A stretch of DNA of 32,547 nucleotides from Verrucomicrobiota bacterium (GTDB lineage: Bacteria > Verrucomicrobiota > Lentisphaeria > Victivallales > UBA1829): assembly GCA_022703965.1 (NCBI GenBank), contig JAKJHH010000020.1, forward strand, positions 1 through 32,547, in the 5' to 3' direction. A program made the position numbers and the translations under genes. Positions 7,735-30,770 of the stretch are shown one piece after another (positions within the stretch are counted from its first letter, which is position 1; each line of letters opens with the position of its first letter). The notes below the pieces were generated by a model. It worked only from the letters and a program-made list of their open reading frames with translations. It searched no databases and was not told the origin of the DNA.

Positions 7735-7893
7735 CAAATGCTCCGTATCTTTTGTTATCCGGACTTGTTTTCCTGTCCGTTTTTGATTATATATAAATCA
7801 TACAACAGGTTTATCTGCCTGATAATGTATAAAGCAGACAGCTTTTTATATTTTACGAACATTGGAGAAGCTTTCATGGAAGGGATTTTTAAC

Positions 7894-7918
7894 CACGAAG
7901 TGCACTAAGAACACGAAA
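7894..7918 (-). repeat. CTTCGTG-type 9-nt periodic array, island A left
   Basis: Read on the plus strand, CACGAAG, CACTAAG and CACGAAA start at 7894, 7903 and 7912, an exact 9-nt period. It matches the array at 15092-15116, which lies on the other strand. It is followed by AAATGCAGGAAG, also shared with island B. Confidence 0.75.
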
Positions 7919-7989
7919 AAATGCAGGAAGTAGTATTTTATAATTAAAGACAGAGGTCTGAATGTTCTTTAATTAATAGTGAACTGAAA

Positions 7990-8088
7990 ACGGGTAGCGA
8001 CGGCAGTCCCTTGCCGTTGAATCCTTAGACGCTAAACGTCGGAAGCAATGGGAAGAGAAGCCGTCAAGGGACTGACGGCACTACCCGT
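7990..8088. mobile_element. REPIN-like element A (two inverted REP units)
   Basis: The element begins ACGGGTAG and ends CTACCCGT. Left REP: GTAG (7994-7997), stem CGACGGCA (7998-8005), loop GTCCCT, stem TGCCGTTG (8012-8019, one G-T wobble). Right REP, inverted: GCCGTCA (8060-8066), loop AGGGAC, TGACGGC (8073-8079), A, then CTAC (8081-8084). GTAG at the foot of an imperfect hairpin is the hallmark of REP sequences moved by RAYT (Y1/IS200-like) transposases, and paired inverted REPs are REPINs. No RAYT gene is in this window. Copies B and C share the same design. Confidence 0.82.
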
Positions 8089-8148
8089 AAAATGTCCCTC
8101 AAAAACGGGGAAATCTTGTCAAAAAAACTAGAAGTTGACGGATAGTAG
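8089..8148. repeat. Conserved right flank of REPIN A
   Basis: About 60 nt directly after the REPIN, including AAATGTCCCTCAAAAA, CTTGTCAAAAAAACTA and GTTGACGGATAGTA, recur after REPIN C (18741-18800) and, interrupted by about 70 extra nt, beside REPIN B. The repeated unit is therefore larger than the REPIN. Confidence 0.75.
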
Positions 8149-8164
8149 TACGAAGGACACGAAA
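8149..8164 (-). repeat. Two-unit CTTCGTG-type motif, island A centre
   Basis: TACGAAG at 8149 and CACGAAA at 8158 are spaced exactly 9 nt, on the minus strand sense of the CTTCGTG motif. The first unit is also present at the equivalent place in island B (CTTCGTA, 14798-14804). Confidence 0.6.
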
Positions 8165-8249: not shown

Positions 8250-8280
8250 ACGAAAAATCAAATAGTCTGGCGGTCTTATT

Positions 8281-8305
8281 CTTCGTGCTCTTCGTGTCCT
8301 TCGTG
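8281..8305 (+). repeat. CTTCGTG 9-nt periodic array, island A right
   Basis: Three perfect CTTCGTG units begin at 8281, 8290 and 8299. The pair with the inverted array at 7894-7918 brackets island A. Confidence 0.8.
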
Positions 8306-8356
8306 GTCGAGCCATCTCTCTTAAAGCGAAGAGACGTATATTTATGGAGGTATCTC

Positions 8357-14682: not shown

Positions 14683-14701
14683 ATATAAAAATATTTACCT
14701 T

Positions 14702-14777
14702 GTCCATGATGTCCATAGCGTCCATTTTGTCCATCAAAAGAGATATGGACGGCATGGACATTATGGACGCAATGGAC
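14702..14777. repeat. Inverted GTCCAT/ATGGAC array, four plus four units, island B
   Basis: GTCCAT starts at 14702, 14711, 14720 and 14729; after a 10-nt gap ATGGAC starts at 14745, 14754, 14763 and 14772. Every step is exactly 9 nt. The four left units can pair with the four right units, separated by 3-nt mismatched bubbles, giving a long regular stem. All eight hexamers are perfect while the three spacer bases vary. Confidence 0.88.
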
Positions 14778-14854
14778 TTTTTTTCAAGTCTTGCATCCTT
14801 CGTACTACGATCCGTCAAATTCTAGTTTTTTTGACAAGATTTTTCCATTTTCGA

Positions 14855-14926
14855 GGCGCATTTGATGGACAAGGAAGCTCTTGCAAGTTTGCAGTGTCGC
14901 TCAAGTTCGTTGCGACACCAAGAAAG
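14855..14926. repeat. Insertion within island B with its own hairpin
   Basis: Compared with islands A and C, about 70 extra nt lie between the GTCAAAAAAA flank and the REPIN. They include GTGTCGC (14894-14900) and GCGACAC (14912-14918), a 7-bp stem with an 11-nt loop, and a GATGGACAAG close to the GTCCAT motif. Edges are approximate because they come from comparison by eye. Confidence 0.55.
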
Positions 14927-14934
14927 GACATTTG

Positions 14935-15019
14935 ACGGGTAGTGCCGTCAGTCCCTTGACGGCTTCCCCTCCAATTGCGTCTAATCGTTCGACGGCAAGG
15001 GACTGCCGTCGCTACCCGT
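14935..15019. mobile_element. REPIN-like element B (two inverted REP units)
   Basis: This copy lies in the opposite orientation to A and C. On the plus strand it starts ACGGGTAG (14935-14942), then stem TGCCGTCA, loop GTCCCT, stem TGACGGC. It ends CGACGGCA, loop AGGGAC, TGCCGTCG and CTAC (15012-15015) CCGT. Both GTAG-hairpin units are intact, and the left stem of the second unit is perfect. The spacer between the REPs is about 14 nt shorter than in A and C. Confidence 0.82.
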
Positions 15020-15091
15020 TATCAGTTCACTATTGATTAAAGAACATTCAGGTCTAAGTCTTAAATTATAAAGTACTAAATTTCTGCATTT

Positions 15092-15116
15092 TTTCGTGCG
15101 CTTCGTGCGCTTCGTG
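15092..15116 (+). repeat. CTTCGTG 9-nt periodic array, island B
   Basis: TTTCGTG (15092), CTTCGTG (15101) and CTTCGTG (15110) keep an exact 9-nt period. A further single CTTCGTG lies at 15159-15165. The run from here back to the REPIN, including GAATGTTCTTTAAT on the minus strand, is shared with island A. Confidence 0.78.
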
Positions 15117-15188
15117 GTTATCCTCCCATATTTGATTGAGGCTATGCCGCGCTAGGCTCTTCGTGGTTTGTTTCTTTTAATAAAACTC

Positions 15189-18500: not shown

Positions 18501-18506
18501 ATAATT

Positions 18507-18548
18507 ATGGACTAAATGGACATTATGGACGTTGTGGACGTTGTGCAG
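18507..18548 (-). repeat. ATGGAC 9-nt periodic array, island C left
   Basis: ATGGAC at 18507, 18516 and 18525, then GTGGAC at 18534 and a decayed GTGCAG at 18543, all in a 9-nt period. It starts 6 nt after the AraC stop codon. Confidence 0.82.
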
Positions 18549-18641
18549 GAACTCAAGAGAAGGTCAACCACGAAGCAGGCGTGATGCCTACACCAGATTA
18601 GTGCGTTTCAGTTTCGCTTAGCGCACGGGAAGAAGCTGAAA

Positions 18642-18740
18642 ACGGGTAGCGACGGCAGTCCCTTGCCGTCGAATCCTTAGATGCTAAACGCCTGAAGCAA
18701 TGGGAAGAGAAGCCGTCAAGGGACTGACGGCACTACCCGT
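18642..18740. mobile_element. REPIN-like element C (two inverted REP units)
   Basis: Starts ACGGGTAG (18642-18649), then stem CGACGGCA, loop GTCCCT, perfect stem TGCCGTCG. Ends GCCGTCA, loop AGGGAC, TGACGGC, A, CTACCCGT (18733-18740). Same orientation and length (99 bp) as element A; only a few substitutions, mostly in the spacer between the REPs. Confidence 0.82.
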
Positions 18741-18800
18741 CAAATGTCCCTCAAAAATGGAAAAACCTTGTCAAAAAAACTATAAGTTGACGGATAGTAA
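18741..18800. repeat. Conserved right flank of REPIN C
   Basis: Nearly identical to 8089-8148, including AAATGTCCCTCAAAAA, CTTGTCAAAAAAACTA and GTTGACGGATAGTA. Shows that about 160 bp were copied as a unit in A and C. Confidence 0.75.
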
Positions 18801-18839
18801 CACGAAGATTTTTAACTATAAGTCTCCGAAATATAAGCT

Positions 18840-18872
18840 GTCCATAACGTCCATTCTGTCCATATCGTCCAT
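18840..18872 (+). repeat. GTCCAT 9-nt periodic array, island C right
   Basis: Four perfect GTCCAT hexamers begin at 18840, 18849, 18858 and 18867. They face the ATGGAC array at 18507-18548, so the island is bounded by inverted arrays. The array ends 10 nt from the stop codon of the membrane protein gene. Confidence 0.85.
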
Positions 18873-18882
18873 ACAGGAAAAG

Positions 18883-30665: not shown

Positions 30666-30710
30666 TATCTGCGCAATGAAACGTAAGGCTTGAGTTTTGA
30701 GGCAAAATCT

Positions 30711-30746
30711 TGTCCATGATGTCCATATAGTCCATTCCGTCCATAT
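30711..30746 (+). repeat. GTCCAT 9-nt periodic array, site D (no REPIN)
   Basis: Four perfect GTCCAT hexamers begin at 30712, 30721, 30730 and 30739. They lie between the ACP (+) and PqiC-like (-) genes, a convergent gap like those of islands B and C. No REPIN or CTTCGTG motif is nearby, so the array can occur alone. Confidence 0.85.
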
Positions 30747-30770
30747 CTGGAGGCGCAGAACAGGATTATA

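Follow-up and report, generated by a model that had tools for sequence, protein, structure and literature searches.

REP hairpins and flank modules in the window

The window, which is the whole 32,547-nucleotide stretch of DNA analyzed here, contains six GTAG hairpins forming three inverted pairs: REPIN A (7994-8084), REPIN B (14939-15015), and REPIN C (18646-18736). All three are intergenic; B and C lie between convergent genes and A lies between divergent genes. The gene content (AraC, GntR-LacI, and N_methyl), taken with the one RAYT relative from a named genome (see below), would point to a host in the PVC group, perhaps Lentisphaeria. The parts of the elements, with the basis of each assignment, are as follows.

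7891..7929, plus strand: outer phrase K of REPIN A (AACCACGAAG..CACGAAAAAATGCAGG); module map
7930..7993, plus strand: left flank module type 1 (Lf1) of REPIN A, common to six other intact copies; module map
7994..8019, plus strand: L-type REP unit of REPIN A, GTAG-CGACGGCA-GTCCCT-TGCCGTTG; pattern match and fold
8020..8058, no strand: spacer of REPIN A; sequence
8059..8084, minus strand: R-type REP unit of REPIN A, GTAG-TGCCGTCA-GTCCCT-TGACGGCT; pattern match and fold
8090..8155, plus strand: right flank module type 1 (Rt1) of REPIN A; module map
14798..14865, minus strand: Rt1 module of REPIN B; module map
14864..14911, minus strand: inserted repeat S, between REPIN B and its Rt1; module map
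14939..14964, plus strand: R-type REP unit of REPIN B; pattern match and fold
14990..15015, minus strand: L-type REP unit of REPIN B, short spacer type; pattern match and fold
15016..15078, minus strand: Lf1 module of REPIN B; module map
15081..15119, minus strand: K phrase of REPIN B; module map
18587..18645, plus strand: left flank module type 2 (Lf2, two small hairpins) of REPIN C; module map
18646..18671, plus strand: L-type REP unit of REPIN C; pattern match and fold
18711..18736, minus strand: R-type REP unit of REPIN C; pattern match and fold
18740..18807, plus strand: Rt1 module of REPIN C; module map

The pattern GTAGNGNCGNCAGTCCCTTGNCG matched the window exactly six times, each match being exact, compared with no match in 100 dinucleotide shuffles. 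Each unit folds on its own into GTAG followed by a 7- to 8-bp stem and the 6-nt loop GTCCCT (z -3.5 to -5.4), and the whole of element A folds into a long imperfect hairpin (z -6.0). A GTAG-type REP is recognized by a GTAG or GTGG tetranucleotide located 0 to 2 nt away from a perfectly paired stem that is 6 to 7 bp or longer, and the window units have both the tag and the stem. The two unit types are L (GTAG-CGACGGCA-GTCCCT-TGCCGTCG) and R (GTAG-TGCCGTCA-GTCCCT-TGACGGCT). Between them, pairs 7/24 (A-T to C-G) and 10/21 (G-C to T-A) are altered on both sides, a compensatory change, and the foot pair 5/26 is absent from the R unit. The L unit of REPIN A has one stem change (TTGCCGTTG), which retains a G-T pair. 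The L/R differences, two pairs changed on both sides plus the foot pair, are what selection on the hairpin would leave. A preliminary description of this DNA had reported elements A, B, and C, each with two inverted units of this hairpin design and half-units that differ consistently; its coordinates are correct to the base, the folds of the individual units bear out the design, and the consistent difference is the one just given.

Smaller repeats accompany the elements. The phrase CCACGAAGnnCACGAAGnnCACGAA occurs at the outer edges of the composite elements (7891-7920, 8279-8307, and 15090-15119), and tracts of ATGGACnnn or GTCCATnnn with a 9-base period lie near the REPINs (14690-14780, 18505-18545, 18838-18875, and 30709-30748). 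When Lf2 of the window (18587-18645) is set beside its copies elsewhere, four of the seven pairs of its second small hairpin are changed on both sides.

Genome-wide copies and a cognate RAYT gene

The genome from which the window comes is a 4.22-Mb assembly of 380 contigs that is 78% complete. A pattern search allowing up to 3 mismatches found 61 REP units on 30 contigs, whereas the reversed-pattern control found none; this count is a lower bound, several copies stopping at contig ends, and it includes some weak matches that are parts of interrupted copies. The units are thus repeated as expected of REPs, intergenic position having been checked for the three window copies. The preliminary description had predicted many genomic copies from three in 11 kb, and this is borne out. 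Inverted doublets are the rule: neighboring units form 21 head-to-head pairs (GTAG outside), no tail-to-tail pairs, and 2 head-to-tail pairs. All 21 head-to-head pairs consist of one L and one R unit, mostly spaced at 67 to 68 or 54, so that the two inverted REPs, the fixed spacing, and the hairpin fold (z -6.0) that characterize a REPIN are all present.

A single Y1_Tnp match occurs in the genome, a 152-amino-acid open frame on contig C202 that carries HIH and Y motifs. It scored 81.2 bits against NCBIfam model NF047646 ("REP-associated tyrosine transposase"), just above the cut-off of 80, and scored far under the cut-off of the IS200 model. The closest solved structure is 4er8, the Escherichia coli TnpA-REP, with which the HxH motif, the Tyr, Q95, and R104 align, while W94 is replaced by F; the alignment spans only residues 61 to 145 of the protein found here. 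Q95 and R104 of TnpA-REP are linked to GTAG (residues named in PMC6006769). The gene lies between an L unit (2854) and an R unit (3540, minus strand), the same arrangement as in a REPIN, and so has both defining features of a RAYT, membership of the REP-associated branch of Y1 HUH proteins and cognate REPs on both sides. Its flanks are diverged Lf2-like and Rt1-like sequences, and this copy has no clear MITE terminal repeats. The inner ends beside its L and R units, GAATCCTTAGATGTTG and GGGAAGGGAAG, are the start and end of the REPIN spacers. Because these ends match and the L/R arrangement is the same, the REPINs look like internally deleted copies of the RAYT unit, with the gene removed.

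This RAYT was found in only this genome among the 36 of the family, as was this REP type within the family. In the order, 10 of 137 genomes, this one included, had a RAYT match, and when named genomes were scanned with the RAYT, one relative appeared, a Verrucomicrobia MAG from Lake Pavin. Searches of phages with the RAYT unit and of viral contigs with the REP pattern gave no match. The relatives are 41 to 50% identical and keep Q, R, and Y, with HxH kept in all but one; H71, Q104, R114, and Y125 are invariant in a seven-way alignment. In the five closest relatives from the order and in the Lake Pavin MAG, GTAG hairpins of other sequence adjoin the RAYT gene, and the exact REP unit of one relative occurs in 15 and 9 copies in two of these genomes. 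Different GTAG hairpins beside related RAYTs fit a pattern in which RAYT and REP would evolve together. One relative (L189) has HIY replacing HIH and is possibly inactive. A sister genus (genome G012; L083, L085-L088) carries a different GTAG head-to-head family (GTAGGTTCGGCAGTCCCCTGCCGAAC), whose loop is similar.

Shared flanks and an IS66-type carrier

Similarity among the copies extends 60 to 80 nt past the REPIN on both sides (7931-8157 for A), an extension that the preliminary description had not noted. Whole-element searches and the module map sort the flanks of almost all intact REPINs into two types of left module and two types of right module, which occur in mixed combinations. Unrelated flanks are typical of REPINs, though absent from the original definition, and the copies found here are not independent units of that kind: intact copies nearly all share flank modules, and MITE ends are present in about half. 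We therefore apply the term REPIN here on the grounds of structure and the link to a RAYT, not of independent dispersal.

Where both flank modules are of type 2, the copy is bounded by GTAATGCGTCA inverted repeats. Of the 19 intact pairs, about half have at least one GTAATGCGTCA end, and none of the three window pairs does. The left edges of REPINs A and B resemble decayed MITE ends; in A, phrase K is preceded by GGGATTTTTAA, which by eye is like the type-b end of the MITE. The 23-bp end of the GTAATGCGTCA-ended copies also bounds an IS, which has a 103-amino-acid DUF6788 frame and a 535-amino-acid IS66-type frame, and both MITE and IS carry GTAATGCGTCAGTCAGGTTTATT, the shared terminal repeat expected of an IS66-type MITE. 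IS66 target duplications are usually 8 bp. The direct repeats seen here are 9 bp, exact at the elements on C93, C318, C84, and C11, imperfect at several others, and not evident at C125 and C111. The IS66-type IS and two MITE copies with decayed REPINs are located as follows.

L201 (C345), from 2172, minus strand: IS66-type IS with DUF6788 and 535-amino-acid frames and the 23-bp end of the REPIN-carrying MITE; frames and end match
C84:7176-7511 and C11:37643-37990: MITE copies with exact 9-bp direct repeats and decayed REPIN, 86% identical, no hairpins at the REPIN place

Since the elements on C84 and C11 have their own 9-bp repeats, the MITE spreads without intact REPs. The shared flanks likewise mean that today's number of copies cannot be ascribed solely to the RAYT; crediting REPIN copy number to RAYT activity requires inspection of the flanks. 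These results qualify the preliminary description, which had proposed an active or recently active REPIN-RAYT system and had counted copies always lying inside a larger transposon as evidence against it. The intact RAYT between cognate L and R units, found where a Y1_Tnp gene with the same hairpins had been sought, and the many inverted doublets stand in favor, and the link to a larger transposon is partly present: about half of the copies lie in the IS66-like-ended element, while the window copies are without clear terminal repeats. Identity as a REPIN-RAYT system is well supported. Its activity and mobilization we infer, on the known biochemistry of RAYT movement (PMC8266576, PMC3116915).

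Conserved arms and the history of the elements

Across the 19 intact pairs, which were found partly through the REP pattern and so are biased toward intact arms, the arms differ by about 2% per site versus 10 to 20% for flanks of the same class. Within the IS66-ended class, one decayed copy removed, the arms had no differences in 765 comparisons, the spacer 2.5%, and the flanks about 10%. Counts by column give the same picture (Fisher p 6e-4 to 3e-7, columns being treated as independent). Flank-based searches found no further class with decayed arms beyond C84, C11, and copies broken by insertion. We read the arm conservation as selection for RAYT recognition or as homogenization between copies. 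As the spacer of the IS66-ended class is conserved too, the excess conservation spans the whole REPIN, which could result from recombination between copies.

The interpretation we favor is a mixed history, a RAYT-derived core that was later carried by an IS66-type MITE and was kept or homogenized. A, B, and C are REPINs, nonautonomous relatives of the RAYT unit, whose core would have been moved or maintained by the RAYT before an IS66-type transposase amplified it as MITE cargo; we give this reading a probability of roughly 0.8. The RAYT, an HUH tyrosine transposase, would bind GTAG hairpins in single-stranded DNA and cut nearby, thereby moving or maintaining the REPIN core, and the IS66-type transposase would later have amplified copies with the REPIN as cargo. 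The shared flanks count against spread led by the RAYT, being unexpected from free hopping of the 91-bp REPIN alone. A more specific version, in which the RAYT-maintained core was captured and amplified by the IS66-type MITE and a third element inserts at the REP hairpins, we hold at slightly under even odds.

The REPIN could instead now be only a passenger, its copies spread by the IS66-type transposase through the MITE with no current role for the RAYT. The exact 9-bp repeats at four copies, the 23-bp MITE end on the IS with the 535-amino-acid frame, the movement of copies with decayed REPINs, and the flanks shared by nearly all copies would all follow. A passenger, however, should diverge like its carrier, yet the arms are about 5 to 10 times less divergent than the flanks; around half of the intact copies, the three window copies among them, are without a clear terminal repeat, and one core occurs with mixed flank types. 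We regard a pure passenger as conceivable but doubtful. Less probable still, and in our judgment unlikely, is that the host retains the hairpins for a function in its DNA or RNA (a bidirectional terminator, an mRNA 3' end, or a protein-binding site) and that they are not kept as RAYT substrates. The intergenic position of all three elements, the convergent genes around B and C, and the conserved arms suit such a role, but the genes on either side of A are divergent, the units are not followed by a T-tract, and an Rfam search of the window matched no family. Moreover, GTAG is not part of the stem, shows conservation as strict as that of the stem, and is the known RAYT guide (PMC8266576). Chance palindromes or an assembly artifact might be suspected in a fragmented draft genome with several copies at contig ends; this was rejected on the counts (6 in the window against 0 expected, and 61 units in the genome against 0 with the reversed pattern), and with unique sequence outside each copy it has next to no probability.

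The elements share with the REPINs of Pseudomonas fluorescens SBW25 (Bertels and Rainey 2011, PMC3116915) inverted doublets of GTAG-ended REPs, conserved arms, a near-fixed spacer length, and a cognate RAYT. Here, by contrast, nearly all copies share long repeats on their flanks, and many are located within an IS66-type MITE; the copy number is lower and the bacterial group is different. GTAG-type REP families (PMC3733652) likewise combine GTAG, a 6- to 9-bp stem, head-to-head dimers of two unit types, and a REPtron beside the family, with loops of 2 to 3 nt in many listed families versus 6 nt (GTCCCT) here. The protein resembles E. coli TnpA-REP in HxH, the single Tyr, and the Q95 and R104 positions and differs at W94. 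Its REP stem, unlike that of TnpA-REP, is free of a bulge, a feature shared with group 3 systems, that of Stenotrophomonas among them (PMC8266576). The MITE is like other IS66-type MITEs in having the terminal repeats of an IS66-type IS and direct repeats at its ends, and is unlike them in the 9-bp length of those repeats and in carrying a REPIN core.

GTAG REPs, head-to-head heterodimers, RAYT units, and REPs inside larger palindromes, which occur in some GTAG-type families, are already described (PMC3733652). The placement of the system outside the well-studied proteobacterial cases, as proposed in the preliminary description, probably holds, but GTAG REPs had already been reported in the PVC group, in Opitutus terrae and Rhodopirellula baltica (PMC3733652). 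A literature search of partial coverage found no paper on REPs with RAYTs in Lentisphaerae. The present data place a complete REPIN-RAYT pair in a little-studied group. They also offer a natural experiment on why REP arms stay intact: the same core is present in copies open to movement by another transposase, so that passenger parts and selected parts lend themselves to direct comparison.

A further element, with ends CTTAAGCGCTAG, lies at the edge of REP stem-loops:

L145 (C370:4613-5215), L148 (C221:10013-10386), L216 (C347:33015-34362), and others

Nearly all of its clear ends abut REP sequence (GTAGnGnCGnCAG|CTTAAG). ISRm22 and other ISs target REPs (PMC1525189), and this DDE_Tnp_1 element similarly inserts at the REP stem-loop edge; unlike them, it is present mostly as short nonautonomous copies. 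The longest copy has broken frames, one of which has a DDE_Tnp_1 match.
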